Origin: Rhodospirillaceae bacterium
GTDB lineage: Bacteria; Pseudomonadota; Alphaproteobacteria; UBA7887
Reading direction: 5' to 3'
DNA: 35,120 nt
NCBI GenBank assembly: GCA_002728255.1
Contig: PBWV01000019.1
Span: 176,414 to 211,533, forward strand
Below the pieces are notes generated by a model. It worked only from the letters and a program-made list of their open reading frames with translations. It did not search any database and was not told the origin of the DNA. A program made the position numbers and the translations under genes. Numbering within the stretch: the stretch's first letter is position 1; each line of letters opens with the position of its first letter. Positions 19,074 through 35,120 of this stretch are shown piece by piece.

Positions 19074-20231
19074 TTACCCTGGAGTGGTCAAGGAATTGTA
19101 CAATCGAAAATAGGAGCTAACGCATACCTCCATGGAAAATTTTGATAACGCCCGCCTCTTTCCTGCTTGTTTCATAGAATTTCTCAGCTCGGCATTTTGG
19201 GCGAGATACTCACAGGCCTCGCCTAGTAGGCTAGGGCTTCTTGCGGGAACAACTAGCCCGGTTTCCTGGTCGGTGATCAACTCGGTGTTTCCGCCGACAT
19301 CAGTCACTATCATAGGAATCCCCAAAGCCATTCCTTCCAGCACTGAATTAGACAAACCCTCTTCGTGAGAACTTGATATGCCAATATCTGATGCTTTCAT
19401 CAAGTCGTAGATGTCCCTGCGTGAACTAAGCCAAATCACATTTTGACTTATTCCGAGGTGACTTGCGCTCTGTTCTAGGTTGTTGAGAATACCATCGTTT
19501 CGGCCGACACAAATTAATCGCCAAGGGTCTGGCAGTTTACCCTTAACATTTGCTAGTGCCTTGAGAAGATCCTTGTGCCCCTTATAGGGAATGAAATTGG
19601 CCACAGTAATAAATACAAGTGCCTGAGCTGGAATGTTGAGTTCTCGTCGCACTTCATCAGGTTTTAGTTTTTCAACAAATTCATTGGGGTCGATGCCATT
19701 GTATATTAGTTGTATCCGGGCTTTTGAGTTGGCGCTTTCCTTCTCTAAGTCTCGTATAATGGCCTTGCTGTTCCCGACCAGCACGTCCATAGTTTTATGT
19801 AAATAGCGTTCAATCCAAGCGCCTAAAGGGTGTTTTTTTTGATAAAAATTTAGGCTCCGTCGGCTCATTATCCGAAAGGGAATTCCAAGAAAGAAAGACC
19901 ATACCCCCCCAAGGAGGTAGGCCTCGGGCAAAAAGAAATGGACAATATTGGGGCGTTCGCGGGCTAGGGTGAATCCTAGCCAAAAGACAATAAAGGTGCG
20001 TCTAATAAACCTTTGGCGCGCAATCCATTTGGTAGGTGGAGGAGACAGTACGGGCACATTTTTGCGTTCCATTTCATTAGCGAGAGCGCCCCGAGCCCGA
20101 AAAGCGATTATTGAAATCTCCAAGCCGTTACCTTGTAATTTAGGCATGACCCGAAGCAAATGATTTTCAGTGCCCCCAATGTCCAACGAACCAATAATCA
20201 CAAATAACTTTGAGGTGTCCCCATTTTTCAT
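19074..20231 (-). CDS. GT4 glycosyltransferase A
   Basis: A GT-B fold protein of 385 residues. The acceptor domain starts LFVIIGSLDIGGTENHLLRV and the donor domain has VANFIPYKGHKDLL and the retaining E-x7-E motif near residues 290-299 (HEEGLSNSVLEGMALG), followed by VTDVGGNTELI. This is a family 4 transferase using a nucleotide sugar at the cytoplasmic face. No signal peptide is seen. It is preceded directly (TAAGTGATG) by the stop codon of the next GT4 gene, so the two are coupled. Sugar and linkage are unknown. Confidence 0.9.
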   Translation of the reverse strand: MKNGDTSKLFVIIGSLDIGGTENHLLRVMPKLQGNGLEISIIAFRARGALANEMERKNVPVLSPPPTKWIARQRFIRRTFIVFWLGFTLARERPNIVHFFLPEAYLLGGVWSFFLGIPFRIMSRRSLNFYQKKHPLGAWIERYLHKTMDVLVGNSKAIIRDLEKESANSKARIQLIYNGIDPNEFVEKLKPDEVRRELNIPAQALVFITVANFIPYKGHKDLLKALANVKGKLPDPWRLICVGRNDGILNNLEQSASHLGISQNVIWLSSRRDIYDLMKASDIGISSSHEEGLSNSVLEGMALGIPMIVTDVGGNTELITDQETGLVVPARSPSLLGEACEYLAQNAELRNSMKQAGKRRALSKFSMEVCVSSYFRLYNSLTTPG

Positions 20232-20234
20232 CAC

Positions 20235-21458
20235 TTACAATGCTTTCCGCCTAATTATTGTACGATAGGCCTCAAGGTATTGATTTACAATTGACCGCCA
20301 CGCAAACACTAATGCCCGTTCTCTTGAAATGTTAATGTATTTCTCCCTGAGATCCTTGTGGGACAAGAGTTGGTTCATTGCTTCCGCTAGCCCTTCATGG
20401 TCCTTTACGGGCACCATTATTCCATACTTTCCTTGGCCTATCACGTCCCGGCAGCCGGGTCCATCTGTAGTGATTATCGGAAGGCTTGCCGCCATTGCCT
20501 CAATAATGGCTATTCCAAAGGATTCGACATGTGATGGAAAGACGAACGCATCTGCACTTTTGTACAGTCCAACTAATTTATTACTTGGTGCCTCAAAGGG
20601 ACTTCCTTCGGCGTCTTGATCAGAAATTTCACCAAGCAGATGAACGTGTTCAGTCAGGCCTTGTTTTGCCACCTGGTTCTTGAGAGTTTCTGTGTGCTTA
20701 CCCGCAATAGCCAAACGGAACGGCCGACTAGCCTTTTTCCTTAACAAAGCGGCAGCCGATATTAGGTCGCTAAACCCCTTTTTTGGATGGTGCCGCCCTA
20801 CTGAGAGATAGAGAAAGGCATCGTTGTTTATTCCAAATTCTTTGCGAATAGAAACAGTGTCAAACGGGCGTTGAAATCGGGGTAGATCGACCCCATTCGG
20901 GATGTTCCATACCTTTTCACTTATTATTTTAATATCGTCATACTCTCGAGCCATTGACTTCGTAATAGCAGACAGAGCATCAGCTCGCGGAAGCCACTTT
21001 CTAATAATTTGGTCGATACGGGGGTCGAGCCGCATGCCGTATCCAAGGTCATGGTTAACTTGGATGTCTTCGCCTGCGCATCTGATAATATGAGGAACAT
21101 CCTTTTCAGCAAAGCGTGCCAAAGCTACGCCAATGGGGAATCCTACCGTGCCGTGCCAGATATCAAAACGATATTTCCACTGTAAAATTCTGAAAAAGCT
21201 TGCAAGTAGTAGAGTGGCGGTTTCTGGAAAGTTTTGGGTGAAAGAGATAGTTTTTGGAGGCATCGTGATGAGCTTGTATGCTAACCTGCGGCCAGTTTCT
21301 TGTATTTGTCGTACGTTGGTTGCTGGTGCAATAACGATTGGGGTATGTCCCTGCGCCAGTAGTCCAGAAGCGATGTTATGGAGACCTATCTCTACCCCCC
21401 CAATGGCAGGTAAAAAGGTTGAAGTCGGAAGTGCTATTACGAGCTTTTTACGTTGCAT
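20235..21458 (-). CDS. GT4 glycosyltransferase B
   Basis: A GT-B fold protein of 407 residues. It opens KKLVIALPTSTFLPAIGGVE and has a donor domain with VGRHHPKKGFSDLI and the E-x7-E motif HVESFGIAIIEAMAASLP. The start at 21458 (MQRKKL) is taken because it matches the usual N-terminus. Any longer reading would deepen the overlap with the upstream gene, which is already 11 bases. No good ribosome site is visible, so translation is probably coupled. It belongs to the retaining family 4; donor and acceptor are unknown. Confidence 0.89.
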   Translation of the reverse strand: MQRKKLVIALPTSTFLPAIGGVEIGLHNIASGLLAQGHTPIVIAPATNVRQIQETGRRLAYKLITMPPKTISFTQNFPETATLLLASFFRILQWKYRFDIWHGTVGFPIGVALARFAEKDVPHIIRCAGEDIQVNHDLGYGMRLDPRIDQIIRKWLPRADALSAITKSMAREYDDIKIISEKVWNIPNGVDLPRFQRPFDTVSIRKEFGINNDAFLYLSVGRHHPKKGFSDLISAAALLRKKASRPFRLAIAGKHTETLKNQVAKQGLTEHVHLLGEISDQDAEGSPFEAPSNKLVGLYKSADAFVFPSHVESFGIAIIEAMAASLPIITTDGPGCRDVIGQGKYGIMVPVKDHEGLAEAMNQLLSHKDLREKYINISRERALVFAWRSIVNQYLEAYRTIIRRKAL

Positions 21459-22557
21459 CGGGTTCGATAGTTGAGACTGTGTCGTGGACGATACTAACAA
21501 CACGGTTGCAGAAGCCTATCTCGCTTGTTTTTTTTTCGAGCTCTTCCCGGTAGGTTTGTTGTGCACACTCAGCCAACGTTTTCAGTTGATGGGGACATGA
21601 ATAGGCCATGCTCAGCTTCTCCATGAAATCTGATAGGTCCCAGGAATGGGTTAAAATTGTTTTTCCAGATACAAAAAGGTTAGGCCAGGTCTCCATATGG
21701 GACATATCTGGTTTCAATAGGGTGGCTCCACAGAGGGTCGCCTCAAAATCCTTGAGTGTGATCTCCCCGAAACCAAATGGAGATATTACCAATCGTGTTT
21801 CCCGCATTTCCTGGTAGTAAGCCCGCCGGCTCAGCTTCCTGGTGCTGAGCCTATCTTTTAAGAGTGTTTGAATTTTCTTGCGCTGGTAGGAAACGGTTTC
21901 CCGTTCATACTTGGTTCCCATCCGGCAAGATAGGGCCACGGTCCTCTCGGAGTTAGATGGTACGAATTTTTTGGGAAGCCAAAAGAGTGCGTTGATCGGG
22001 ATAAACCTTCTTAATCCCATGATATGAGGGCCGTACATACTGTAGTTCGCCAGGCCTGAATTCCATGATAATCTGAGCTGGCCAAGGCGACTCGGATCGG
22101 TCAGCACTCGGTTCCGAGCAGGTGTAGAATCAGTTGCCCCAAAGGACTGGTGATAGTAGTCAGCCCAAAGTCGATTCCCGTATAATTTTTTCATGTATAG
22201 GGACTTATCTTTGAGTAATTGGCCTTTGCAGTACCAGCGGACAAACGGCAGGACTTGGGGCTGAAGCCAGCCACTGCTGTCCGAAATATCAAACCACACT
22301 AAGGGCACGCTCTCCGCTAGCCTTGATAAGTCCATCAAGACCGCCTGATCTCCCTCAACTTCCCATCGATGGCTAACGCTGCGACTTTCTATAAACAGCA
22401 CATCGCAATCGCATAGCTTCGGGTGTGCAATGGACGTGAAAAATTTAGTTTGAATACCGCAATCCGCGAGTTCTTTTCGATACACAATGAATGGAAATAA
22501 GAATGCAATTCCGTTAGGAGACTGAAAGCCCTTAGTGAGAATGTGAATTTTATGCAT
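21448..22557 (-). CDS. Probable glycosyltransferase, family unclear
   Basis: The 369-residue protein has no strong match I can name. Near the C-terminus is a block that looks like the donor-binding region of GT-B or exostosin/CgeB-like transferases: RLVISPFGFGEITLKDFEA, then LCGATLLKPDMSHMETWPNLF, broken here as LCGATLLKPD and METWPNLF. The N-terminus IHILTKGFQSPNGIAF looks like a sugar-transferase opening strand. No signal peptide or membrane segment is seen. The start ATG overlaps the end of asparagine synthetase 2 by about eight bases, and the 3' end overlaps the next GT4 gene. A glycosyltransferase role rests mainly on the C-terminal block and the context. Confidence 0.6.
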   Translation of the reverse strand: MHKIHILTKGFQSPNGIAFLFPFIVYRKELADCGIQTKFFTSIAHPKLCDCDVLFIESRSVSHRWEVEGDQAVLMDLSRLAESVPLVWFDISDSSGWLQPQVLPFVRWYCKGQLLKDKSLYMKKLYGNRLWADYYHQSFGATDSTPARNRVLTDPSRLGQLRLSWNSGLANYSMYGPHIMGLRRFIPINALFWLPKKFVPSNSERTVALSCRMGTKYERETVSYQRKKIQTLLKDRLSTRKLSRRAYYQEMRETRLVISPFGFGEITLKDFEATLCGATLLKPDMSHMETWPNLFVSGKTILTHSWDLSDFMEKLSMAYSCPHQLKTLAECAQQTYREELEKKTSEIGFCNRVVSIVHDTVSTIEPDAT

Positions 22558-24397
22558 CATCTAACCGAGGTGCATTGGCATTACGTATATCAGCTACTGA
22601 CCTTAGCCAAAGCTCTAAGTTTATTAGGTGTTCCAACGGTATGGGTTTCTTGTTCCTTTTGTTTCGAAAGTCGTCCACTGCGGTGCGGACTTTTTTAGGG
22701 TCAGAATACGAAGCAAGCTGGCTATCGGGTTGTACTAGTAGATCTAAATATCTACCCAATCCGGTCTCATTTTCAAGCCAACTTCGAAGTGGCAATGCAA
22801 GACCGACTTTGCGGCGATCCACTATCTCCGATGGGAGAAATTGCTTTGCAACCCTTTTGAGTATGGGTTTGGTATCACCACCCGGGGCCCGAAGTTGAAC
22901 TGGTATTCGATTGATTTTCTTGGCCAGGGGGGCGTGGCTGAAGGGCACCCGTGCCTCTACGGAGGCCGCCATAGCCATTTTATCTTGTCTCATCAAAAGC
23001 GATGATAAATATGAGGTTTGATCAACTGCAAACATCCTTTCCCGGAAATCCAAGAATCGGGAGGCAGTGTCTTCACGCTGGCCACCTCTGTGAATCAGGG
23101 GTGGGAAAAGTTCTTCTAATTCGAGAATATCATGATAAACGGCTCCGAAAATCGCTGCATCTCTGCCTGAGAACTTTTGGATTTCTCGCCAGCGTTGAAG
23201 AATGGGCCAAAGAAAACCGGGGACTAGATCGGCAAATAGACCGTTCCTCTTTAGTTTTCGCCAGATGTCATATCGTTTGTATCCGCCAAATAGCTCATCG
23301 GCCCCCTCGCCCGTTAGGACCACTTTGTGTTTTTTACGAATGGTTTCGCACAATAGCATCAACATTACGCAGCCATAGTGTGGAACTGGACCCTCCATGT
23401 GTTTAATGGCCCGCGGCAGGGCATCGGCAAAATCGTTATTGTCCAGTGTTACTTCATGATGTTCTAGGTTTAAGCGTTTTTGGATAATGCGACGATAGGG
23501 TCGCTCGTCCTGTGGGTATCCTGGTATGTGAACGCCATATGATGTAAGTGTTCCGGCAGTTTCCTTTGCAGCTATCGCCGTCACAAGGCTAGAGTCGACA
23601 CCCCCCGAAAGTTGTACGGCATAGCCTACATCACTGACCAGGTGAGCCTTAACCGAGGCATATACTGTTTCCTTTGATAATTGTACCGCATCGTCTTGGC
23701 TCAAGGAGTTATCGGAGTTCAGGTGCTCCAAAGGGTCGTCAAATTGTTCAGGCTTTGTCCTGGCATCATTAATATTAGCAGTGCATGTATATCCTCCCGG
23801 AAGCAGCTCAATGTCTGAGATGTTACTTAATGTTCCTGAAGCATAGCGAAAAATTAGAAGTTCAGGCAAGGCGTTGGTATCTACCTCAAATGGAGTGATC
23901 CCAGCGAAGGAACGCATTTCTGTGGCAAAACCAATTAAATGACCTCTTTTGAGTATGTACAAAGGCTTTATTCCAAGGGTATCACGTGCCGCTATCACCT
24001 CGCACCTGTGTCGATCAAAAATTACAAGTGAAAACATTCCCTCAACTTTGGGAAATAGCTTTTTTTTCCAATGAGCGTAACCATGAAGAAGTACTTCTGT
24101 ATCTCCCTCGGTTTGGAACAGGTATCCTTTTTGCTCTAGTTCCCTTCGGAGCTTTCTGAAATTATAGATCTCACCATTGAATACTAAGGAGTAGCGGCCT
24201 GTGGGATCGGTCATGGGTTGGTCGGAGGTGGATCCAGGGTCCAGTATAGCCAGCCTTCGAAAAACCATGGCTATCCCGGGCTCGGCAATCATTCCTCCTG
24301 AGTCTGGCCCCCTATGTAGAATGTCTTTTTCTAGCCTCCGTAGCAGTGGGCTGGAGAAAAGGCGTTCCTTTTGGCATAAAACTACGAACCCACACAT
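22550..24397 (-). CDS. asnB: Asparagine synthetase-type glutamine amidotransferase 2
   Basis: The 615-residue protein begins MCGFVV with nucleophile Cys2 and has VFNGEIYNFRKL and EGDTEVLLHGY in the glutaminase domain. The synthetase domain has P-loop SGGVDSS at 264-270, LTGEGADELFGGYKRYD and SVEARVPFSH. All residues normally needed for ammonia transfer and ATP use appear present. It is clearly diverged from the 652-residue paralogue at 17096, so a recent tandem copy is unlikely. The two probably act on different carboxyl groups. It starts six bases after the stop of the sugar dehydrogenase/cytochrome gene and has no obvious ribosome site. Confidence 0.91.
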   Translation of the reverse strand: MCGFVVLCQKERLFSSPLLRRLEKDILHRGPDSGGMIAEPGIAMVFRRLAILDPGSTSDQPMTDPTGRYSLVFNGEIYNFRKLRRELEQKGYLFQTEGDTEVLLHGYAHWKKKLFPKVEGMFSLVIFDRHRCEVIAARDTLGIKPLYILKRGHLIGFATEMRSFAGITPFEVDTNALPELLIFRYASGTLSNISDIELLPGGYTCTANINDARTKPEQFDDPLEHLNSDNSLSQDDAVQLSKETVYASVKAHLVSDVGYAVQLSGGVDSSLVTAIAAKETAGTLTSYGVHIPGYPQDERPYRRIIQKRLNLEHHEVTLDNNDFADALPRAIKHMEGPVPHYGCVMLMLLCETIRKKHKVVLTGEGADELFGGYKRYDIWRKLKRNGLFADLVPGFLWPILQRWREIQKFSGRDAAIFGAVYHDILELEELFPPLIHRGGQREDTASRFLDFRERMFAVDQTSYLSSLLMRQDKMAMAASVEARVPFSHAPLAKKINRIPVQLRAPGGDTKPILKRVAKQFLPSEIVDRRKVGLALPLRSWLENETGLGRYLDLLVQPDSQLASYSDPKKVRTAVDDFRNKRNKKPIPLEHLINLELWLRSVADIRNANAPRLDDA

Positions 24398-24403
24398 ATT
24401 AAG

Positions 24404-26218
24404 CTATGAACTCTGCTTTTTCCTTCCATGGGAACGGCGGGACCATGGCATCCAAATACTAAGGGTGAAAATAATGGTTGCGACTGTGCCCATTGCAAAT
24501 GCTACCAAAATATGTCGATATCGCAATTCTGGAAGGAGATACGCTATGAAAAACCTAAGCCGATCAAGGGAACTTATCGCTTTTTCTTGCTGGCTTTTTG
24601 GCTCGTTGATTTGGATCAAGTGGGTTGCAACGACGGCCGCGTGTTGTGGGGTGAGACCTAGGTTCGGCATCTGCGATTGCGGATTATCAAAGGCCGGTTC
24701 CTGAAGATAGTGGGTCAGCCAGACTAGGAGACGATCCTTTTCCGAAGAAGCAAGTACATTGTGTCTTGCATCGTAGGTTTCCACAAAGGGAGCACTTTCC
24801 AATGTGTCGACGAGCGCCACTTGTTTGGCATAGTTTTGATTATTTATCCGAGCTCCAATTGAAGCAATTAGGGTGGAGTCTAAGGGAGGGCCAAAATTCC
24901 CCCCCATACCGGAAATCTGATGGCAGTCCCGGCAACCATAACGACTGAGCAAGGCGGTTGGCCGAGTGTCTTGTTCAATTATATGGGGATGCCCGATGGA
25001 AGGGTTGTAAGAGAGCTTTAAGATGGGGGTTGTTCCATCATTTTGGGGCATCATCGCAACCAAATACAGGCCGTCTGGCCCGAACTGGACGGAGACAGGG
25101 AGTTGGTAACCGTTGCCGCGGTAGGCTAAAAGCTGCTTAGGCGGTGTGGCGGCTCTATTATTGTCAAAGTCGTAGTCAAACACCACGACGGTTCTTTGTC
25201 CTCTCATGCTTGGTCCTTGGGCACCAGGTGTGCCGGCCAGGGCGATGAAGAACTTGTTTGTGTACGGATCGGGGAAAATATTGCTCTCAGATTCTAGAAA
25301 ATCCAGTTGGACTAAACCCACTGCTGGCCCAAATATATAGTTAGCTCTTGCGGCAAAAGACCAATCGTTCCCCTCCCACAAATAATTTTCACCTCTGTTG
25401 ATTTCAAGAAAACGATCTATAAATCCGCCGTTTTCTGTTGCAAATAGGCGGCTCTTAGCCAGTACAAGGCCAAAAATATTTCTGTGTCCGTAGGACCATA
25501 TAAAGTCCGTAGATGTTGTCTGACCATCATCAACGAAAAAGGGATTGTCAGCGTATGGTTCTAGGTCTAAGTCCATTCGCAATACCGATCCTAGCGCAGA
25601 GGCTAGGTTCTGGCTTTCGTGGCGTTCCTTTCCATAACCAACTGGCACAAAGAGCTGATGGCCATCGATGACACAGGGGCCTATTTGGTGGCTGGTATCA
25701 CTTCTTTCATTCGCAAATATATCAAGAAGAAATTTGGGGTCCTTTGCCTCCAAGCTGAAAGTACCAGGATTTGATTGGAATCTCACTAGGCCGTTTCGAA
25801 ACACCTGGGTTTTATCCAAATAGCCGAAGGAAATAAAAATGAAGCCATTGAGCGGATCCAAGCAAAGGCCTGCAGCTCCCAGTGTTTGAAATTCTTCTTT
25901 GAGTGGGACGGGTAAAAAGTTATCGGCGACTGTGTATACCTCCCGGTTTCGGGTTACCACTTTTAGAGCTCCCTTCAATTCTATGACGTAGTATAGAGGC
26001 GAAAGCGGCTCGTTTCCGGGGTTAGGGACAAACTCTATATCTGATGGAAATCGATATCCTGTTGAATCAATTTCCAATGAAAAACCCTGTGCCACAGCCC
26101 AGTCATCCTTCCAAATGTTGGCTCGGTCTTCTTCTGCCATGGAACCTGTTACGGAGAGGCTAACCCCTATGAAGGGGAGCGCGAGGAAACAAAGTTGCTT
26201 TGTAAAACCTGGCCACAT
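24404..26218 (-). CDS. Membrane-anchored glucose/sorbosone dehydrogenase-like protein with cytochrome c domain
   Basis: The 604-residue protein starts with a signal-like segment (MWPGFTKQLCFLALPF to about residue 26). It continues with a beta-propeller region of the soluble glucose/sorbosone dehydrogenase type containing SYGHRNIFGL. Then comes a cytochrome c domain with one heme site CRDCH (residues 429-433) and a distal MPNLGLT Met. A C-terminal membrane helix (HILVAFAMGTVATIIF) and a basic tail follow. It would sit on the outer face of the inner membrane and pass electrons from a sugar or alcohol to a c-type heme. AAAGGAG nine bases upstream fixes the start at 26218. Finding such an enzyme inside a glycan operon is unusual. 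Substrate and cofactor are not determined. Confidence 0.82.
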   Translation of the reverse strand: MWPGFTKQLCFLALPFIGVSLSVTGSMAEEDRANIWKDDWAVAQGFSLEIDSTGYRFPSDIEFVPNPGNEPLSPLYYVIELKGALKVVTRNREVYTVADNFLPVPLKEEFQTLGAAGLCLDPLNGFIFISFGYLDKTQVFRNGLVRFQSNPGTFSLEAKDPKFLLDIFANERSDTSHQIGPCVIDGHQLFVPVGYGKERHESQNLASALGSVLRMDLDLEPYADNPFFVDDGQTTSTDFIWSYGHRNIFGLVLAKSRLFATENGGFIDRFLEINRGENYLWEGNDWSFAARANYIFGPAVGLVQLDFLESESNIFPDPYTNKFFIALAGTPGAQGPSMRGQRTVVVFDYDFDNNRAATPPKQLLAYRGNGYQLPVSVQFGPDGLYLVAMMPQNDGTTPILKLSYNPSIGHPHIIEQDTRPTALLSRYGCRDCHQISGMGGNFGPPLDSTLIASIGARINNQNYAKQVALVDTLESAPFVETYDARHNVLASSEKDRLLVWLTHYLQEPAFDNPQSQMPNLGLTPQHAAVVATHLIQINEPKSQQEKAISSLDRLRFFIAYLLPELRYRHILVAFAMGTVATIIFTLSIWMPWSRRSHGRKKQSS

Positions 26219-26227
26219 AGTCGGTCT

Positions 26228-26234
26228 CTCCTTT
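26228..26234 (-). promoter_or_regulatory. Strong ribosome binding site for the dehydrogenase/cytochrome gene
   Basis: AAAGGAG on the minus strand ends nine bases before the ATG at 26218 and overlaps the TAA stop of the upstream methyltransferase gene. It rules out the longer in-frame reading that starts at 26305. Confidence 0.7.
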
Positions 26235-27009
26235 AGGGTTTTCGGCAGTAGAAGGTCATAAAGTTTCCATAAGCAGGTGGCGAAATGCGGTTTGTATTGA
26301 AACATCTTAATAAATTAGTGCGATTGAACCACTTGGTAGAGAAAAAAGGATAATCTACTTTTAGTATTTGGAAGCCACAATCACGCAGACATCTATGCAT
26401 AGAGTCATTAGAGAAGAGACTAATATGAGTAGGATCATTTAGTAACCGGTAGTTGTTTCCGAAACGCCGCGCACAACCTGAATCAAAATCAGGGGTTCCG
26501 ACAATTATTGTTCCACCTGGCCTTAAAAGGTCGCGAATTTTCCTGAGTGTAGTCACGGGGTCCTTCATGTGTTCGATAACATGGTAGGCGATTACAAGAT
26601 CGAAAAAACTATCGTCATAGTCAACCGTCTCAAAAACCCCCTTATATATAATTCCATGCGGAGAAGCCTCTGTTGAGGCTTGGGCAGATGGTTCAACGCC
26701 ATACTTGGACCAGTGGTTATCAACACATGATAGAAGCCAGCCAGGACCACAACCAATATCCAGCAGCCTACCTGGTTTTAGACAGGAAATAAAATGTAGT
26801 TCAGTTTTCAGATTTTCCAAATACTGGTTTTTCTCATTCAACCTATTTCGCTGAATGCCATCGGGATCTGTGGATTCACCCCAATAGTCAGTTGTCAGGT
26901 CCTGTGACGTTTCAGGCCGCACTCTAACAAAATATTGGCCAGTGGTGTATAGGGATTCCATGGCATTAGTGAGGTCAAAGTTGGCAAGATTTCGTTTCAT
27001 AGGAGTCAT
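26233..27009 (-). CDS. Class I SAM-dependent methyltransferase
   Basis: The 258-residue protein has motif I LLDIGCGPGWLLSCVD, an acidic end of strand 2 (YGVEPSAQA), motif FFDLVIAYHVIEHMKDP and LLRPGGTIIVGTPDFDS. The VIEH-type fingerprint fits the methyltransferase 11/23 group often found in surface glycan clusters, where members methylate sugars or glycosyl lipids. The ATG at 27009 lies three bases after the ABC transporter stop; an in-frame ATG at 27000 is an alternative. The 3' end carries the ribosome site of the next gene. Acceptor unknown. Confidence 0.87.
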   Translation of the reverse strand: MTPMKRNLANFDLTNAMESLYTTGQYFVRVRPETSQDLTTDYWGESTDPDGIQRNRLNEKNQYLENLKTELHFISCLKPGRLLDIGCGPGWLLSCVDNHWSKYGVEPSAQASTEASPHGIIYKGVFETVDYDDSFFDLVIAYHVIEHMKDPVTTLRKIRDLLRPGGTIIVGTPDFDSGCARRFGNNYRLLNDPTHISLFSNDSMHRCLRDCGFQILKVDYPFFSTKWFNRTNLLRCFNTNRISPPAYGNFMTFYCRKP

Positions 27010-27012
27010 TAC

Positions 27013-28815
27013 TTATTTCGTATCAGCAACTTGGTGATCCCACATTTTTCTAAAGAACGACCCCCTATTTTCGTAAAGGTTCTTAAAAGAACCACTTTCC
27101 AGTATTCTGCCAGCTGCCATAACGTAGATATGGTCACACTTGGCAACAGAAGACAAGCGATGGGCGATGACAACGATCGTTCTCTTTCCATGAAGTTTTT
27201 CTATGGATGCTTGCACGATTTTATCGGTTTCTGCATCAAGGGCATTGGTGGCTTCGTCAAAAATTAGAATATCGGGATCCTTGTACAGTTCTCTTGCAAT
27301 GGCAATGCGTTGTCGTTCACCCCCTGAGAGAGAAGCGCCACGCTCACCTACTTGGGTCATATATTTTTGGGGAAGCGCCTCGATAAAGTCGTGGCAGTGA
27401 GCGGCACGGGCAGCCTCCTTCATTTTTTCTATATTGTTCTCTTTTTGGTTAGGCCCTAACCGGAGGGTCAGGTTAGTCGCAATAGTGTCATTAAGAATCA
27501 TAGGGTCTTGCGTCACATAACCGAGGCGACTGCGGAATGCCTCGTTATTTAAATCCGAGAAGTTGTGCTCGCCGATTGTAATCGACCCCTCATCAGGGAC
27601 TATTAGGCGGGTCAACAAACGAAAGATCGTAGTTTTTCCAGCACCAGATTCTCCAACGATAGCAACAGATTTATGATACGGAATGGTAAGATTGATGCCC
27701 TTAAGAATATGATGTTTTTTCCTGTGCAGGCTTACATTCTGAAAAATGATATCGTCATTTAACGAGTCTATAACTATACTTCCGTTGCATTCGTGGGCCT
27801 TCCATATTTCTCGGGAAAAATTAGATATATAATGGACGCCTCCAATTAATTGGTGGAGCCGTTGTATGGCAAGAGGAAGAGTAAGGACATGGCTAAGAAC
27901 TCGATACATTATTAGTGCTATCACTACCGTGCTCGCCATGGAGCTACTAAGCATTTCTACATTGTAGAATATGTATCCTAGCAAAGAGAGCACAGCCAGC
28001 GGCTCCTTAATGGCACCTAAAGCAGCTGTTCGTCGACCCATTCGGATTTGACGATCTGCAAGGTCATTGACGCGCTTAAGCACATGTTGTCTGACCCTAC
28101 GAGAATTCGCGGTTGCCTTCAGGTAATCGAATGACTCCACAAATTGTACCATCTCGGAGGACAGCGAGGCTGTTTTATCGGACACATCCATGGACAAAGC
28201 CTTGGTATGGCGAATTAATGGTCGCGCTACAAGGAAGGCGAGCATTCCAACCACAACAATTATAAGAGAAATTTCCATTTCTAGTACGATGATGGTTGGT
28301 ATGTATATAAGGGAATAAACCAGGGAAACAATAATGCGGCTGAAGATCCGGAGCGAGGCCGCAAAACGGGCGCTTTCTACCGTCATTAAATTAGCCAGAT
28401 ATCCAGTCTTTTGTTCCAAATAAAATTCATATCGGGCCTGCTCTAATCCCCGAGCAAGAGAACTTTGGAGAGAGTGGCGAACCAAGGCGATGGTACGAAT
28501 GGTCCAATAATTTTGGGCAAAAGAAACTAACGCCTTAAAGATAAAAATCGCCGAGATTATCAACGCTAGGCTTGCAAAAGAAGTGCTAAATCCGAGATTA
28601 GAGATTGTGGCCAAGACTTTTTGGGATATGGGGTTATTGAGATCTTCACCCAGGGAAAGTTGTAGAAGTGGGAGCAACGTGACTACCCCCAAAAGCTCCA
28701 TAAACGTTCCGATGAATATTAGAAATATTAAAAGAGCTAATCGCCATTGAGCAAACCTTATGAATAGCCCCATATAACTAAAGAAAATAGAGTTAGAGTT
28801 CGTTTCTAAGGCCAA
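27013..28815 (-). CDS. ABC half-transporter (permease-ATPase), probable glycan-lipid flippase
   Basis: The 600-residue protein has an N-terminal six-helix type membrane domain (about residues 20-330) and a C-terminal ATPase. The ATPase shows Walker A GESGAGKTT (388-396), Q-loop Gln436 in VTQDPMI, signature LSGGERQR (496-503), Walker B DILIFDEATNALD and switch His552 in IAHRLSS. This is a type IV exporter fold like MsbA or PglK, acting as a homodimer. In a cluster with no recognisable Wzx, it is the best candidate for flipping the lipid-linked glycan to the periplasm, as PglK does. It starts a few bases after the radical SAM gene. Confidence 0.9.
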   Translation of the reverse strand: MALETNSNSIFFSYMGLFIRFAQWRLALLIFLIFIGTFMELLGVVTLLPLLQLSLGEDLNNPISQKVLATISNLGFSTSFASLALIISAIFIFKALVSFAQNYWTIRTIALVRHSLQSSLARGLEQARYEFYLEQKTGYLANLMTVESARFAASLRIFSRIIVSLVYSLIYIPTIIVLEMEISLIIVVVGMLAFLVARPLIRHTKALSMDVSDKTASLSSEMVQFVESFDYLKATANSRRVRQHVLKRVNDLADRQIRMGRRTAALGAIKEPLAVLSLLGYIFYNVEMLSSSMASTVVIALIMYRVLSHVLTLPLAIQRLHQLIGGVHYISNFSREIWKAHECNGSIVIDSLNDDIIFQNVSLHRKKHHILKGINLTIPYHKSVAIVGESGAGKTTIFRLLTRLIVPDEGSITIGEHNFSDLNNEAFRSRLGYVTQDPMILNDTIATNLTLRLGPNQKENNIEKMKEAARAAHCHDFIEALPQKYMTQVGERGASLSGGERQRIAIARELYKDPDILIFDEATNALDAETDKIVQASIEKLHGKRTIVVIAHRLSSVAKCDHIYVMAAGRILESGSFKNLYENRGSFFRKMWDHQVADTK

Positions 28816-28821
28816 TTGGGT

Positions 28822-29901
28822 TTACCTAGTTAGTTGGTCTAACAATTTGGGAAATTGCCTTCTCATGAAATCTATGACTACCCTTTTTCGGTTCTTTTTT
28901 ATAAATGTATCTACCCCTTCATATCTGGTGCATGTTTGGCACACCTTCGGTAATTTTCCGGCGCGCCATTCTGTCCTGTATCGTCTAAGTGCAGGACCGC
29001 GCCATATATCTTGAAGGGTGTGAGTATTAAGGTTGCCCACTTTTATTTCGCTCTCTAGGTCTACACAGACACAGGCGCCAACGTTCCCATCGGCGAGGAC
29101 ATGAAGACGCCGATAAAGCTCGAAGCATGGAGACACAATTTTTTCCTTCAGCGGCAAGGGCTCGTCCAGGAATGTTCCTTCAGGAACGTCATCTTTCTTT
29201 ATGAGGCCTCCCCATGCGTCATAAATATCAAGATAATCAATGTTTTCTTCGCCAATTAGCTTAGCAATTTTTTTGTATGTTTTTGTGCCTTGCCATAGTT
29301 TGCGGCTTCCTTCTACTCTTAGGTGAAGAGTTATTCTAACGGGACTCTCCAGTTTTAAGTTAGCCTGAGATATATCAAGGATGTTTTGTACAACTCTCTC
29401 GTATTTATCATTCCCATAATACTTTAAGTACCCCTCCCGACTTCCTATGAATGTTGATATAGCCAAGCGACTCAGGCCGGATTTCAGTAATGTTTCACAG
29501 CCAAATTTTTGAATTAGAATAGCATTGGTGTAGAGGAAGATATCACCAATTCGGGCTTGTGAGCGGGCATACTGTATCTTTTTCACTAAGTCCCGGTCTA
29601 CGAGGGGGTCTCCTACTGTTGGGGTAAAATTCAGATTTCCGCCACCACTATCAACAAAATCATCTACGGCCTTCTTGTATAGGTTCCAACTCATCTCGAG
29701 TTTTGGACGTTGCATGTAGCGATATCCGCAGAAAGAACAATTAGCGTTGCACAAGTTTGTGGTTTCGACGCCAAAGTTAATAAATGTGTGTTCCATTAAA
29801 CGGCGGAGAGCGAAAACTGGTAAAAAACTAGCGGCAACTTTAGCTATGCGAGAGCGGAGGCGTTGTCGTTGGTTTTGCATTATCAGAGAAACTTGGCGCA
29901 C
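28822..29901 (-). CDS. Radical SAM protein with C-terminal SPASM-like cysteines
   Basis: The 359-residue protein has the radical SAM cluster motif CNANCSFC (Cys51, Cys55, Cys58). This is followed by a TPTVGDPLVD segment in place of the usual GGEP-type motif and by SRLAISTF. A C-terminal SPASM-like set of Cys (259, 277, 279, 321, 324) would bind a further iron-sulfur cluster. Relatives in glycan and peptide-modifying loci oxidise or rearrange substrates; its own is unknown. The start is GTG at 29901, with AGG about seven bases before it; an ATG at 29880 is an alternative without a ribosome site. A reaction on a sugar or a nucleotide sugar is inferred from the cluster. Confidence 0.86.
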   Translation of the reverse strand: MRQVSLIMQNQRQRLRSRIAKVAASFLPVFALRRLMEHTFINFGVETTNLCNANCSFCGYRYMQRPKLEMSWNLYKKAVDDFVDSGGGNLNFTPTVGDPLVDRDLVKKIQYARSQARIGDIFLYTNAILIQKFGCETLLKSGLSRLAISTFIGSREGYLKYYGNDKYERVVQNILDISQANLKLESPVRITLHLRVEGSRKLWQGTKTYKKIAKLIGEENIDYLDIYDAWGGLIKKDDVPEGTFLDEPLPLKEKIVSPCFELYRRLHVLADGNVGACVCVDLESEIKVGNLNTHTLQDIWRGPALRRYRTEWRAGKLPKVCQTCTRYEGVDTFIKKNRKRVVIDFMRRQFPKLLDQLTR

Positions 29902-29909
29902 GTGATTAC

Positions 29910-31496
29910 CTATTGGGCTATGTAGTTCTTATAAAAATCGGGCGGACAGCCCGTGTTATCTGATGTAGATTCAATTGCATTGCCCAAATCATCACGGGAA
30001 ACCCTAAATCTTCCCCGATCATCTTGAGAGGCGCTTACGATTTTGCACCTTTTTAGTAAATCCGGTTTGGTTGTTTTATCAAAGGCGCGAATGGTTGTGT
30101 CGGCAAGAATAATATTGTGGTGGGAAGCGAGGGCATCGAAGAAGGCGCTGCCAGCGAAATCGAAGATTAGAAAATCTACCTCGTGGTCGAGCGGGTCAAA
30201 AAACCCGGTTATTACCCTATCAGAATAGGGCTCCAAGAGCGATCTATTGGGCATTATCCCTCTGGGGTGGAGTTTGGTGGTTATGCGATAGCCAAGTGAC
30301 CGCAACTCCTTGAGAAGTGAGACTTGCCAGTCTAGGTACAAAACATCGGGTGGCTTTCGACTTGCGAAGTCCGCCAACGCCTCTCCCAGATAGCCGCCAG
30401 CCACATATAATGCCTGTCTTGTTTTTGAACCGTGCCGTCGTTTTTGGCCATTTTCATAAATATGTCGGTGTCGACTTGATCCATTAGAAAGAAATTTTAT
30501 TGTATTTGCTTGTGGGGATCCAGCGATCTCCCGATTTGCAATTCGTTTTTTTATAGCGTGGGCTTCTCCTGTGCTATGGGTATAGTACTTGTCGCAATTT
30601 ACTAGCTCAGCCACAGCCCACTCATTATCAACAAAAAAAGCCCGTTCGCCGCCGTGTGCGAAGCGAATGACTGGACGGGCATCCTGCTGGTACAAAAATG
30701 ACGTAAGACGACCAAGGTGCTTTGGTGTGCCACTGAGCAATCGGAGTCCTAGTGCCCTTCGGCGGGTGGATCTACTGATAATTGTATAATCTAGCCCTGC
30801 TTTCCCTAAGTGATAGTGTATTAAAAGATTCCCCAATTGTTTCAGCCGCTTCAGTAATAACGCTTTCACGGGCAGGTTTTCGGATACTAAAGAATTAAAA
30901 GTCTCTGTCAGACAGATAGTAAGATCATTAAACTTTGTTCTGCCTTGGCTAGGCTCTCTCCAACTAAATAGGTTGGCCGGCCAGTCAACTTGGCGACCCG
31001 GGTGCAATGTGAGATAGTCGCTAAGCAGGTAATTCCGATTAAGAATATCGTCGTGCTTAGCCACAGCAATTGCTTGTCCATGTGTAATCCATCGTTTGGC
31101 TGTTTTCTTTATCCGTGGCCAAATTGTACTATCAGGCGGGTGGTGCCAGACCCGAATCCTAGAAAGATTGTTTAGGGTGTTACCCGTATCTAGGAAGGCT
31201 AATAAAGGACTTTCCCTTGGGCTATAGCGCGGTGTTGGGTTGTTATTAAGGTCTAACCCAAGTCTGCAAATGAAAGCAAGGTCGGTTATTATATCGTAGG
31301 CTTTTGCATCTCCCAGGATGCGGGGAAGAGTACTCTTCTGAAACTGAAGAATGGCCTGAAGAACGCGAGTAGTAATGGCATTAGATATGGCGCTATAGTC
31401 GTGGTAGTTGGTATGCCACGATAACTCATTTAGGGCCGCAGTTCCGTCTCTTAAGCTAGCTATATCAAGTGGGGTTGAGGACGAAACTTTATCCAT
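29910..31496 (-). CDS. Capsule-type GT-B protein, candidate nonulosonate transferase
   Basis: I do not recognise a named family for this 528-residue protein. Its C-terminal half has a pattern seen in capsule GT-B transferases (Kdo, sialic-type and CDP-glycerol-type): HGG at 281-283, a strand ALYVAGGYLGEA, KLHPR at 408-412 and IFDFAGSAFFDAL at about 444-456. The N-terminal half is mostly helical, with no signal peptide or membrane segment. It starts one base after the stop of the sulfotransferase-like/kinase-like gene (TGAAATG), so the two are coupled. NeuA and NeuB are two and three genes upstream, so transfer of an activated nonulosonic acid is a reasonable but untested idea. A CDP-linked polyol donor is the main alternative. 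Confidence 0.6.
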   Translation of the reverse strand: MDKVSSSTPLDIASLRDGTAALNELSWHTNYHDYSAISNAITTRVLQAILQFQKSTLPRILGDAKAYDIITDLAFICRLGLDLNNNPTPRYSPRESPLLAFLDTGNTLNNLSRIRVWHHPPDSTIWPRIKKTAKRWITHGQAIAVAKHDDILNRNYLLSDYLTLHPGRQVDWPANLFSWREPSQGRTKFNDLTICLTETFNSLVSENLPVKALLLKRLKQLGNLLIHYHLGKAGLDYTIISRSTRRRALGLRLLSGTPKHLGRLTSFLYQQDARPVIRFAHGGERAFFVDNEWAVAELVNCDKYYTHSTGEAHAIKKRIANREIAGSPQANTIKFLSNGSSRHRHIYENGQKRRHGSKTRQALYVAGGYLGEALADFASRKPPDVLYLDWQVSLLKELRSLGYRITTKLHPRGIMPNRSLLEPYSDRVITGFFDPLDHEVDFLIFDFAGSAFFDALASHHNIILADTTIRAFDKTTKPDLLKRCKIVSASQDDRGRFRVSRDDLGNAIESTSDNTGCPPDFYKNYIAQ

Positions 31497-31497
31497 T

Positions 31498-33168
31498 TCA
31501 ATCTGGTTTCTTGCAGCGCAAAAATATTTTTATGTTAAGCGCAATTTCCTTAGCGACAGAGTGAGCATCCCTTTGATCAATGTGAATTACTTTAAGGAAT
31601 GCATTATTCTTTTTTGTAGTTTCAAGTAGTAGTGTTTGGTAGCGATTTATTTCATTTTCCTCCAATTCTTGTTTACGATCGTATATGTTTTTGGGTGTGT
31701 CAATGAGTATGAAGCTCATGGCGGGCTGTGGTGTCAATCGGCAAAATATTGCTACGGCGCAAATATGGTACCAGGGGCGCTTGCGGATTTTTAGGTCGGT
31801 CAAACGATCATATATATAACGATCGGCAAGCGCTATTTGTCCCGATTCGGAGATATCAAAAAGCTTAGAAAAAATCGATGTAGCATAAGTATATTCATCT
31901 ATAAGTGCACGGAGGAGATATCGGATTGCGCTTGGTAAAAGATGCCAACAGGTACGGAGAACGCCCTTGCTGTTATATGGTCGTATCCTCTCAGGGTTGC
32001 TGCGCATCTTGTCGAGACGATGGTGAAAGCCCGTGGCGGGGATCCCCTCTTCCTGAAGTATATTGAGTGCTATACCTAGGGAGGTACTTTTGCCAACGCC
32101 ATGCGCCCCTGAAACAACAAAAAAATGCTGGGACAAGGAGTTAGTAGATGGGAAAGTGGCCTGGCGTTTCAGTCGCAGGCCGTGCCTAGTGTCGGTCCAG
32201 CATTGTTTTACAGCGTTTAATTGTCTGATTAAGCTCTGCTTCGGGTAAAGGTAAAACTCCGATAATTTGCGGGCTGCAATTGGTCTTCGCCACCCAACTG
32301 CGATTATAGATTTGAGGTATATTCCTTTATGGTTTCCCAGTGTGGTTGAGCGAATTGTCTCCAGTTCACTTTTGGTTAATAGGTGCTCCCAAGTGCCACC
32401 TGGGGTGTAGAAACCTCGAGACTTCTCAAATCGGAAGTGTGGAGTAAAGTCAAAGTTTGAATAAAAATCTATTTTATCACTTTGAAAAAAATTAGCGGCG
32501 TTGCGTAATTCTTGATCATTTTTCTCACAAAGTAAATCAAGTGACATCGTGATTACATCATTGGGATTTGTTCGAGATAAATTGCGGGACACTTGCTGCG
32601 AAAGAGCTAAGAGGCCTAATATATTGCGGAAACGTGTATGTCGATCGCTGGGAGGCTGTGGCCAAGTTCGCCAGTACATGGCTGCGGCAACAGCTGATTC
32701 TGGCTGCCTTTGCATTACAGCTAATCTTAAATTAGGAATCTTTGAACGATATAATGTGTAGCGAAATTCGGGATGAAGATCAAAGGCTGCCCAGGTACGC
32801 TTATCATGTGAAAGTGCTATTTGTTGTAATATCCAGCTTAAAAGCGACACTTGGTTGTCTATTGTTTTTGGGACGTCGTTAAGCAGCTGACGGCCATGAC
32901 TATTGATAAATTCGGCCGGAGTTTTTATTGCACTGCGGGAACCATCTATATACCGAGGGCGGTTGATGTACTCTTCAACTATTTTGTGTAGCTGCTGTTC
33001 GAAAAATAGAAACACGCGTTTGTCATATACATGAAAGACGGCCTCTAGCGGAAACCCAAATACCGGGCCTCGACTATTAAACAAAGCATCAGCAAGTAAG
33101 GTCTTCCCAGATCTTCCGGCACCTCCTATAAGTGTAGGTCCCAGCGTTTGAGGTTTATCCGGTTTAAT
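31498..33168 (-). CDS. Sulfotransferase-like plus thymidylate kinase-like fusion, non-ATG start
   Basis: From an ATT at 33168 the frame encodes 556 residues with two Walker A motifs. The first, GAGRSGKT (16-23), sits in GGAGRSGKTLLADAL, which resembles the sulfotransferase 5'-loop (GxxRSGTTLL). It is followed by QRQPESAVAAAMYW, near the usual 3'-phosphate region, and a late GGTWEHLLTKSELE, which is typical of sulfotransferase tails. The second, GAHGVGKS (354-361), begins a thymidylate kinase-like half with DRYIYD and RKQELEENEINRYQ. The first conventional start (TTG 33084) would remove the first P-loop. Between 33085 and the neuA stop no in-frame ATG, GTG or TTG exists. GGGGGAA lies a few bases before the ATT. 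It is coupled to the next gene. Nucleotide kinase, sugar kinase or sulfate-activating roles are all possible. Confidence 0.6.
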   Translation of the reverse strand: MKPDKPQTLGPTLIGGAGRSGKTLLADALFNSRGPVFGFPLEAVFHVYDKRVFLFFEQQLHKIVEEYINRPRYIDGSRSAIKTPAEFINSHGRQLLNDVPKTIDNQVSLLSWILQQIALSHDKRTWAAFDLHPEFRYTLYRSKIPNLRLAVMQRQPESAVAAAMYWRTWPQPPSDRHTRFRNILGLLALSQQVSRNLSRTNPNDVITMSLDLLCEKNDQELRNAANFFQSDKIDFYSNFDFTPHFRFEKSRGFYTPGGTWEHLLTKSELETIRSTTLGNHKGIYLKSIIAVGWRRPIAARKLSEFYLYPKQSLIRQLNAVKQCWTDTRHGLRLKRQATFPSTNSLSQHFFVVSGAHGVGKSTSLGIALNILQEEGIPATGFHHRLDKMRSNPERIRPYNSKGVLRTCWHLLPSAIRYLLRALIDEYTYATSIFSKLFDISESGQIALADRYIYDRLTDLKIRKRPWYHICAVAIFCRLTPQPAMSFILIDTPKNIYDRKQELEENEINRYQTLLLETTKKNNAFLKVIHIDQRDAHSVAKEIALNIKIFLRCKKPD

Positions 33169-33235
33169 GATTTCCCCCGAGTGTTTGGCAGAATAACGAT
33201 TATGTAATCTGATAGTGTTAATTAAGAGTGAGTTT

Positions 33236-33949
33236 TTATTTTGTGGAGCACCCTTCGTTGAGAAGGAAAGAGTTCATTAAGGCTTCGCAAAAAGTTAAAT
33301 CGGAGGGTTCATCAATTTGAAAACTTTTCCAGAGTTCCATTTCCCATATGCCTATTTTACCACCTAGGCGGTTATTGTGGCTTTGAATGCAGTCCGGTGT
33401 GAAGATCCAAAAAGAACCGTTTTCTAGGAATTGGTCCGGCTTTTCTTGTCGCCGGCCACGGTTTTTGTAATCATAGGTATAACTAGAAAGTTGGCCGTCA
33501 GCGGACGGCTTCCAGATGTTGAAATCGGTAACCAAGCTTGCTGAGAACAACGAGTCTAGGTTTTGCTCAATGAAGTGTTGAATAGCTCCATCAAAGTCCA
33601 CGCTGCTTCGGACGGGAGACGTGCATTGTGGCCCTACAATTAACTTTACCGAGCGGCCTGTTTCTTGAATATATTTGAGGGCATGTAACCAACCACTTTC
33701 CGATGAAGCTGTATCACCAGATATGTGGGAAGGGCGTGGAATTACCTCCGCACCATACTCCTTAGCAACGTTAAGGATATTGGTATCGTCGGAACTCACC
33801 CAAACGCTGTCGATATGTTGTGCGTCAAGAGAGTGTTCAATGGTCCACGCAACCAGTGGTTTCCCGCAGAACGTGGCTATATTTTTTCCAGGAATACCTT
33901 GGGATCCGCCTCTGGCAAGAATTATAGCGATATTTTCAGCCATTTTCAT
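33236..33949 (-). CDS. neuA: CMP-nonulosonic acid (sialic-type) cytidylyltransferase
   Basis: The 237-residue protein opens with the nucleotide-binding IAIILARGGSQGIPGKN and has CGKPLVAWTIEHS, then WVSSDDTNIL and VIPRPSHISGDTASS. GPQCTSPVRSS, FSASLVTDFNIWK and ENGSFWIF follow. This is the acylneuraminate cytidylyltransferase family, which activates Neu5Ac, legionaminic, pseudaminic or related acids with CTP. AAGG lies five to six bases before the ATG. It follows neuB by 31 bases. No NeuC-, Leg- or Pse-type genes are visible in the window, so the exact acid is unknown. Confidence 0.93.
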   Translation of the reverse strand: MKMAENIAIILARGGSQGIPGKNIATFCGKPLVAWTIEHSLDAQHIDSVWVSSDDTNILNVAKEYGAEVIPRPSHISGDTASSESGWLHALKYIQETGRSVKLIVGPQCTSPVRSSVDFDGAIQHFIEQNLDSLFSASLVTDFNIWKPSADGQLSSYTYDYKNRGRRQEKPDQFLENGSFWIFTPDCIQSHNNRLGGKIGIWEMELWKSFQIDEPSDLTFCEALMNSFLLNEGCSTK

Positions 33950-33980
33950 AACACCTTATTTGGGAAAACGACGATATGGG

Positions 33981-34841
33981 TTAGCCAGGGACATTTTTTC
34001 GGAGCTTCTCACGGGCGGATTGTTCTGATTCTTGTAGAGTTTTCTCGCCATTCCCAAGCACTTTGGGAAATACCCTCACGGCTGATGTAAAGCTTCGCAG
34101 TGCTTTTGTTTCTATAGATGCGGCTTGATCAGAGCCATACATAGTTCTGTCCAATGTCACATGCCTTTCAAGGGAAGTAGCCCCTAATGCGAGGGCAGCG
34201 ATGCAAACGGTGACTAGACTTGTTTCGTGACCAGAATATCCCACCGGAACGCCATAACGGCTTTTGAGTGCTGGGATCATTCGCAAATTAGCCTCTTCCA
34301 CATTCATGGGATAAGTCGAATTACAGTGCATGAGTTCAAAGGGGCATTGGGCTTTACGAAAAAGACCCACAACTTGATCTATTTCCTCCAGAGTGGACAT
34401 TCCAGTTGATATAAATGTCCGTTTTCCTTGTGCCGCTATGTCCCTGATTAGAGGGATATGCCCTAACATTGGAGAAGCTACTTTGTGAAAAGGCGGGTCA
34501 AATTCTTGGAGGAACTGTAAGCTTTCTTGATCCCAACAGGATGCAGACCACGATATATTTTTACTCTGGCAATAGGCGTCTATTGTCTTGTATTCTTGCA
34601 ACCCAAATTCCAGACCTTCCTTCTGCTCACGCTGTGTATTTCCCCACGGGCTCTCTCTGTGGCTGTCCAAGTACTCTTCTGTATAAACAGCATTGATAGT
34701 GCGCTTTTGGAATTTTACGGCGTCGAAACCAGCGTCGGACGCTGCATCTATCATCTGTTTAGCGAGTTCCAATGAACCATTGTGGTTAATACCAACTTCA
34801 GCAATCAGAAAAATTGGTGTCTCTGAAAATTCTGATGACAC
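33981..34841 (-). CDS. neuB: N-acetylneuraminate synthase-type enzyme lacking the SAF domain
   Basis: NeuB condenses a HexNAc-type sugar with phosphoenolpyruvate to a nonulosonic acid. The TIM-barrel part is complete: FLIAEVGINHNGSLELAKQM, VKFQKRT, FHKVASPML, FISTGMSTLEEI, MHCNSTYP, VGYSGHE and GATSLERHVTLDR. At 286 residues it is shorter than usual and stops just after EQSAREKLRKNVPG, where the C-terminal SAF (antifreeze-like) domain normally begins; no such domain follows before neuA. GTG at 34841 is the start, with AAGGAG seven bases upstream. It is preceded by the PhyH-like gene and followed by neuA. A NeuB, LegI or PseI substrate cannot be chosen from sequence. Confidence 0.92.
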   Translation of the reverse strand: MSSEFSETPIFLIAEVGINHNGSLELAKQMIDAASDAGFDAVKFQKRTINAVYTEEYLDSHRESPWGNTQREQKEGLEFGLQEYKTIDAYCQSKNISWSASCWDQESLQFLQEFDPPFHKVASPMLGHIPLIRDIAAQGKRTFISTGMSTLEEIDQVVGLFRKAQCPFELMHCNSTYPMNVEEANLRMIPALKSRYGVPVGYSGHETSLVTVCIAALALGATSLERHVTLDRTMYGSDQAASIETKALRSFTSAVRVFPKVLGNGEKTLQESEQSAREKLRKNVPG

Positions 34842-34848
34842 GAATAAT

Positions 34849-34854
34849 CTCCTT
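34849..34854 (-). promoter_or_regulatory. Ribosome binding site supporting the neuB GTG start
   Basis: AAGGAG on the minus strand lies seven bases before the GTG at 34841, the expected N-terminus of neuB. Confidence 0.6.
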
Positions 34855-34882
34855 ATATGTTACACTAGATGTGTCCGCCGAT

Positions 34883-35120
34883 TTATAAATCATGTTGTGG
34901 TAGCAATAACTGTTCGTCTATGAGACGATTTTTCAATGCAGTGGGAATAGTTTTACTGTAGGTGGGCCTTCTTAAAAAGAAAGTGCGGTGGTTAGCCGCG
35001 TGGGAATTGTTTGCTCCGTATGACATATAAATTGCGTACTTAGAAAGGGGTCCATGAAGATTTCCTCCAGCATGCATTACTCTTTGGTCAAAGATAAGAC
35101 AATCCCCCGGGTGTGTTTTC
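34883..35120 (-). CDS. PhyH-like Fe(II)/2-oxoglutarate oxygenase, C-terminal part (cut by window edge)
   Basis: Reverse-strand reading from the right edge (codons in frame with the stop at 34883) gives THPGDCLIFDQRVMHAGGN and ends LLLPQHDL. PGDCLIFDQRVMHAGG fits the end of the double-stranded beta-helix of phytanoyl-CoA dioxygenase-like oxygenases: the distal iron His in MHAGG, then a basic position before YAIYMSYG for 2-oxoglutarate. It is the first gene seen of the minus-strand run and lies 41 bases before neuB. It could hydroxylate a sugar, a lipid or a glycan building block. Only about 79 residues are in view, so the identity is moderate. Confidence 0.6.
   Translation of the reverse strand, partial: KTHPGDCLIFDQRVMHAGGNLHGPLSKYAIYMSYGANNSHAANHRTFFLRRPTYSKTIPTALKNRLIDEQLLLPQHDL

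Follow-up and report, generated by a model that had tools for sequence, protein, structure and literature searches.

A natural gene fusion of a sulfotransferase-fold half and a thymidylate-kinase-fold half in a nonulosonic acid locus of a Rhodospirillaceae bacterium

The described proteins with which the present one is best compared are the PAPS sulfotransferases, the thymidylate kinases (Tmk) and the bifunctional PAPS synthase. In Tmk the Glu or Asp of the P-loop has a role in dTMP binding and AYQ is the thymidylate-binding element, and the bifunctional PAPS synthase makes PAPS. A passage of PMC11625862 gives as hallmarks of PAPS sulfotransferases a Lys or Arg in the loop (RxG for PF13469) and a Ser on the 3'-phosphate-binding helix, and a passage of PMC11697783 describes the bifunctional synthase as an ATP sulfurylase-APS kinase. 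The gene reported here resembles the synthase in that a single chain would join sulfate chemistry and a P-loop kinase, but its kinase half instead matches thymidylate kinase, and APS kinase is encoded by a separate gene in this genome. Literature searches, which lay mostly outside subscription papers and do not prove absence, returned no description of a fusion between a sulfotransferase-fold and a thymidylate-kinase-fold protein.

Reading frame and start of the fused gene

The window, by which we mean the whole 35,120-nt stretch of DNA analysed, is the end of contig C19. The features of the fused gene on which the argument depends are as follows.

31498..33168 (-): fused gene, 556 codons plus stop, with a probable ATT start (open frame, copy in contig C1, start column)
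33174..33178 (-): GGGGG, which lies 5 nt upstream of the ATT and may be a ribosome-binding site
32143..33168 (-): N-half, residues 1-342, sulfotransferase-fold domain (Sulfotransfer_3 rows, model, Foldseek, VIA)
31498..32142 (-): C-half, residues 343-556, thymidylate-kinase-fold domain (Thymidylate_kin rows, model, Foldseek, VIA)
32134..32172 (-): fusion junction, in which TTG 32136-32134 matches the probable TTG start of the C protein of locus L020
33100..33123 (-): first Walker A motif (GAGRSGKT, residues 16-23), which occupies the site of the PAPS 5'-phosphosulfate loop
32086..32109 (-): second Walker A motif (GAHGVGKS, residues 354-361), in which His replaces the Glu/Asp of TMK

On the minus strand a frame free of stops extends from 33168 to 31498 and gives 556 residues, within a whole open frame of 591 aa. 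No in-frame ATG, GTG or TTG lies upstream of the first Walker A motif; the first such codon is the TTG at 33084, and a start there would remove that motif. The ATT at 33166-33168 is the likeliest start, because the GGGGG lies 5 nt upstream and because the ATT shares an alignment column with the starts chosen for six relatives (ATG in five and TTG in L017; L018 has an additional earlier ATG). An ATT start would probably be weak. Counted from this codon, the two Walker A motifs stand where the earlier note had read them, and since both are kept in homologues (the first in seven N rows, the second in five C rows) they are not chance matches.

The nonulosonic acid locus and its relatives

The fused gene is preceded by two genes of nonulosonic acid synthesis and followed by a conserved gene in the same direction.

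33981..34841 (-): neuB-like nonulosonate synthase (NeuB, 1.2e-68)
33236..33949 (-): neuA-like cytidylyltransferase (CTP_transf_3, 1.6e-23)
29910..31496 (-): 528-aa conserved protein, next gene in the same direction, with a homologue in five of six related loci

This neuA/neuB setting, claimed before on the basis of the letters, was correct and is conserved in related loci. The gene order in the window is neuB, neuA, the fused gene, the 528-aa gene, and then genes for a radical SAM protein, an ABC transporter and a methyltransferase; in L017 and L018 it is neuB, neuA, N, C, ABC transporter, 528-aa gene, radical SAM and methyltransferase. As to the homologues of the 528-aa gene, the L020 locus ends before it and the L019 locus ends inside it. 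Searches of Pfam, NCBIfam and the PDB gave no significant match for the 528-aa protein, its best Pfam hints being non-significant (E 0.11 and 0.12, the latter to A-2_8-polyST, each in one of five rows); that it is a glycosyltransferase, perhaps a nonulosonate transferase, is a guess. The window also holds a further Sulfotransfer_3 gene at 14951-15823. PAPS supply is plausible since the genome carries an APS kinase gene (PF01583).

Several neighbours may be recorded in their own right. In L017, L018 and L021 the radical SAM/SPASM enzyme (28822-29901, minus strand) has counterparts that are about 67% identical to it, and in L016 the match covers just 73 residues at 35%. A protein that by eye is sugar-dehydrogenase-like and carries CxxCH (24404-26305, minus strand) overlaps the methyltransferase gene (26233-27009, minus strand) by 73 nt and has homologues in L016 and L021. 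Beyond the end of the window lie two genes that by eye encode PhyH-type dioxygenase-like proteins (L010:14983-15828 and 17355-18233), of which the first adjoins neuB and has homologues in all six related loci and the second in L018 and L020.

The N-half is rare and was detected in 2 of 96 related genomes, namely its own and that of a genus mate (G001), and in 1 of 289 and 1 of 385 genomes of the class, in two overlapping samples and each time in its own genome. Six N-half loci were found in genome_contigs by a scan with two short peptide patterns, which may miss distant relatives. In all six, which are neuB/neuA loci of the same kind, the N gene is unfused. The C gene follows it directly in three, after gaps of 10 nt (L017), 9 nt (L018) and 16 nt (L020): in L018 the two genes share a frame that is interrupted by just one TAG, and in L017 and L020 the C gene is in a shifted frame. 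In L016 the C gene lies about 7.8 kb from the N gene beside an ABC transporter gene, and in L019 and L021 no C gene is adjacent and the 528-aa gene comes directly after the N gene. A whole-genome search with the C profile nevertheless recovered a C-half relative in each of the six genomes with an N gene. Four genomes (L016, L017, L018 and L020) have a short form; L021, and L016 in addition, have a longer protein that is extended at its N terminus; the relative in L019 is a 120-residue fragment cut by the contig end. Outside these genomes no strong C relative came to light: at E <= 0.001 the C profile matched 22 of 398 genomes of the phylum including its own (best match elsewhere 2.8e-9), and a search with the single C-half sequence matched its own genome alone among 289. 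Searches for phage or plasmid relatives gave no match in viral_contigs (0 of 11 candidate stretches), plasmids or phages.

Since the halves are separate genes in all six relatives, the gene is by this comparison a gene fusion, seen in this genome only, and the simplest history would be that ancestral neighbouring genes were fused here by loss of a stop or by a frame shift. Both folds are known but their combination is new; it occurs in a rare lineage, and the gene pair behind it stands side by side in three of the six relatives. Homologues of the full fusion beside neuA/neuB, which the earlier note had looked to other genomes for, were not found among these six. The opposite finding, that the halves are always split into unrelated genes, holds in part: they are split in all six, but they are neighbours in three and share the same region in a fourth.

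A fused frame might still yield two proteins, with the C-half made from the internal TTG at 32136, in which case the fusion would have little meaning. That TTG does lie at the position of the probable TTG start of the L020 C protein, and the start of the first gene is itself the non-standard ATT; but no ribosome-binding-like sequence precedes the TTG by eye, and both halves, their motifs intact, are joined in one frame of 556 codons, so that we consider separate synthesis quite unlikely. The fusion could also be an error of assembly or base calling, with the stop of the first gene masked by an indel of one base. Stops do occur near the junction in both remaining frames, close to where the N proteins of the relatives end, and the shifted frame of the C gene in L017 and L020 would fit such an indel. 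However, positions 19901-35120 of the window are repeated in contig C1 of the same assembly at 99.8% identity, with 29 mismatches and no gap over 15.2 kb, and the two contigs agree at the junction, though as parts of one assembly they are incompletely independent. The fused gene has five base differences between C19 and C1. Because its frame is open in these two differing contigs, a base error is unlikely even though both come from one assembly, and an artefact as the source of the fusion is in our view very improbable. The C19/C1 repeat (G000:C1 = L010) perhaps represents two strain haplotypes in one assembly, and it may contribute to the assembly's contamination estimate of 4.84%.

Folds and active-site residues of the two halves

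The halves were folded separately because alignments of the whole fusion placed the P-loop of the C rows onto the P-loop of the N-half. Modelled alone from seven sequences, the N-half reached a pLDDT of 81.6 and a pTM of 0.83; the C-half, from five sequences, reached 86.6 and 0.81. Comparison of these models bore out what had been proposed from the letters, namely a PAPS sulfotransferase fold in the N-half and a Tmk-like fold in the C-half. That both halves might match one known two-domain kinase family can be rejected, as the models match different families.

For the N-half, all 16 Foldseek matches at E <= 0.001 were sulfotransferases (best, human TPST1, 2.7e-6) and the first kinase stood at rank 19 with an E of 0.01. 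All 50 matches listed by VIA were likewise sulfotransferases; against 4gox the Z-score was 13.9 (rmsd 4.1, 219 aligned), the fold extending over residues 8-278. At the level of sequence, PF13469 (Sulfotransfer_3) matched four of the seven N rows (best 8.3e-5) and the window's row matched no Pfam family at E <= 10. The N-half profile found nothing in the PDB by sequence, SlmA alone appearing at E 0.3, and against a Sulfotransfer_3 control profile it gave an E of 6.9e-06 and a probability of 84.5. The profile-profile values given here and below are pairwise comparisons with control sets of our own choosing, each with one misread row, and not database searches. The sulfotransferase controls comprised 30 of the highest-scoring Sulfotransfer_3 loci from 142 genomes of the class plus the window's own, and being picked from the highest-scoring loci they lean towards typical members. 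The segment GGTWEHLL...SELE, previously likened to a sulfotransferase tail, has its counterpart just in the weak end of one profile alignment. Two further segments of the N-half bear on its chemistry.

33025..33057 (-): GFPLEAVFHVY, residues 38-48, holding Glu42, which is invariant in 7/7 rows
32671..32721 (-): AVMQRQPESAVAAAMYW, residues 150-166, strand-turn-helix of the 3'-phosphate type with an invariant Arg154 and no Ser at R+8

Measured against the PAPS sulfotransferases (PF13469; nearest 4gox, 4gbm and TPST1/2), the N-half has the same fold, the RxG of the 5'-phosphosulfate loop, the invariant Arg of the 3'-phosphate turn and an invariant Glu after strand 2. The RSGKT part of the first Walker A motif is invariant in the seven rows, and R19-S20-G21 aligns without gaps to the RxG loop of the control profile, in which one control (L047) has Lys instead of the loop Arg. 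Glu42 is a candidate catalytic base, a role suggested by comparison with TPST. The N-half differs from these enzymes in two residues as well as in the lack of a Pfam match for the window's row. Its Walker A Lys stands where Thr or Ser is found in every one of the 29 readable Sulfotransfer_3 controls, and the Ser of the 3'-phosphate helix, present in 25 of 27 readable controls, is missing from all seven N rows, being Ala in two (the window and L016) and Glu in five. The Walker A Lys and the missing Ser speak against ordinary PAPS use, and the N-half may prefer a nucleotide without a 3'-phosphate; because of these two features the name PAPS sulfotransferase should not be transferred to it.

Taken further, the same residues could mean that the N-half no longer uses PAPS and binds ATP or another NTP through the Walker A Lys, acting as a kinase or NTPase, which would make the chain a double kinase. 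GAGRSGKT is indeed a complete Walker A motif, with an invariant core and a Lys found in none of the readable controls, and the loss of the Ser throughout the N rows points the same way. Nevertheless, the structural matches down to E 0.001 are without a kinase, the RxG Arg and Arg154 are kept, two of the 27 controls also lack the Ser and the control set is biased to typical members. We regard this alternative as rather unlikely.

In the C-half, the motifs expected of a nucleoside monophosphate kinase, DRYIYD and a lid-like Arg/Glu segment, are present as the first reading had it.

31786..31824 (-): DRYIYDRLTDLKI, residues 449-461, DR motif (C-row alignment and Tmk profile alignment)
31636..31701 (-): DTPKNIYDRKQELEENEINRYQ, residues 490-511, lid-like segment (Tmk profile alignment)

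All 50 matches listed by Foldseek and all 50 listed by VIA for the C-half model were thymidylate kinases, the best Foldseek match having an E of 5.6e-9 and 1e9f a VIA Z-score of 18.6 (rmsd 3.6, 187 aligned). PF02223 (Thymidylate_kin) matched five of six C rows (best 8e-6), the window's row not among them, and TIGR00041 four of 11; the window's C row had no PF02223 match at E <= 1 and no TIGR00041 match at E <= 0.1. Against the Tmk control profile the C-half profile gave an E of 4e-07 and a probability of 92.8. With the thymidylate kinases (PF02223, TIGR00041; nearest 1e9f, 1e2g and 4s35) the C-half shares the whole fold, the GxxxxGK[ST] and DR[YF] motifs and the lid-like segment, and GVGK and DRY are invariant in five C rows. 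It differs in having His at the P-loop acid position (5/5 C rows), where all 23 readable Tmk controls have Glu (19) or Asp (4), FHHR in place of the TREPGG of Tmk, and DRYxYDxLxDL in place of its DRFxDSxxAYQG; no AYQ element occurs in its DRY segment in the Tmk profile alignment. A search of the genome with PF02223 yields just the Tmk gene on C42. Since neither the P-loop acid nor AYQ is present in the C-half and the genome has this separate Tmk, the name dTMP kinase should not be transferred to the C-half. A role as the housekeeping Tmk is rejected, the PF02223 gene standing elsewhere in the genome, and identity with APS kinase is unsupported, the PF01583 gene lying elsewhere and the C-half aligning to Tmk.

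TMK-like domains related to the C-half also occur in long proteins, two from related genomes (L016:1-1353 and L082) and three from other genomes of the phylum (L025, L026 and L040). Unlike the fused protein, these have no sulfotransferase match and carry an extra N-terminal part without a Pfam match at E <= 0.01, and those of L016 and L082 have the P-loop Asp of TMK and not the His of the C-half. By eye, the N-terminal part of these proteins (L016:1-1353, L082:1432-2934, L025, L026 and L040) is nucleotidyltransferase-like, and some of them adjoin genes of a sugar-polymer type.

The window's row keeps 80 of the 99 columns of the N-half, and 46 of the 63 of the C-half, in which all the other rows agree; among those kept are the two P-loops, Glu42 and Arg154 as well as the DRY motif. 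By leave-one-out it is the most diverged row, followed by L016 (80/93 and 46/59), the others keeping 80 of 81-84 and 46 of 46-51. Judged by the residues retained, the active sites of the window protein are not decayed, though its row is the most diverged. One might still suppose, from the replacement of the Tmk P-loop acid and AYQ, that the C-half carries out no catalysis and is a kinase-like domain that has degenerated or serves regulation, but the invariance of GVGK and DRY and the proportion of its columns that are kept make this improbable.

What the fusion may mean

The best explanation, to which we give a probability of roughly 0.55, is that loss of a stop joined two adjacent genes of the nonulosonic acid locus and that the resulting chain is a tethered pair of a sulfotransferase-like group transferase and a kinase that does not act on dTMP, at work in the synthesis of a nonulosonate glycoconjugate. 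Comparison with the relatives shows that the sulfotransferase-fold and thymidylate-kinase-fold genes came into one frame here, probably when the intervening stop was lost, and the product would be a single chain with two nucleotide-binding sites. From its fold, the N-half would transfer a group, probably sulfate from PAPS, to a glycan or an intermediate, using the loop residues Arg19 and Lys22 and Glu42 as base; the C-half, again from its fold, would phosphorylate a small substrate other than dTMP on the same pathway. In the simplest reading both domains would act on the same pathway intermediate, and the fusion would keep the halves together and in equal amounts. The fusion, the adjacency of the genes and their co-occurrence suggest that the two products work together. 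The coupling of a sulfate reaction to a kinase that was proposed at the outset is at most a hypothesis: the N-half is without one PAPS-binding hallmark and has a kinase-type Walker A Lys.

A more far-reaching reading, which we put forward as speculative and unlikely, is that a Lys-bearing, Ser-less family of the sulfotransferase fold forms with the TMK-fold kinase a two-step, nucleotide-dependent machine for nonulosonic acid modification, for example by phosphorylation followed by transfer, or with ATP in both sites. If so, the enzyme family and the modification would both be new to knowledge.

The natural joining of these two unnamed proteins, which belong to a conserved alphaproteobacterial nonulosonate locus, is good evidence that they act together, and it offers a way into a glycan modification not predicted from sequence alone. 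If the N-half uses ATP and not PAPS, this would be a case in which the sulfotransferase fold serves kinase-like chemistry; should both halves work in the way that their folds suggest, the chain would be a one-chain sulfation and phosphorylation enzyme in the pathway of a sialic-acid-like sugar.
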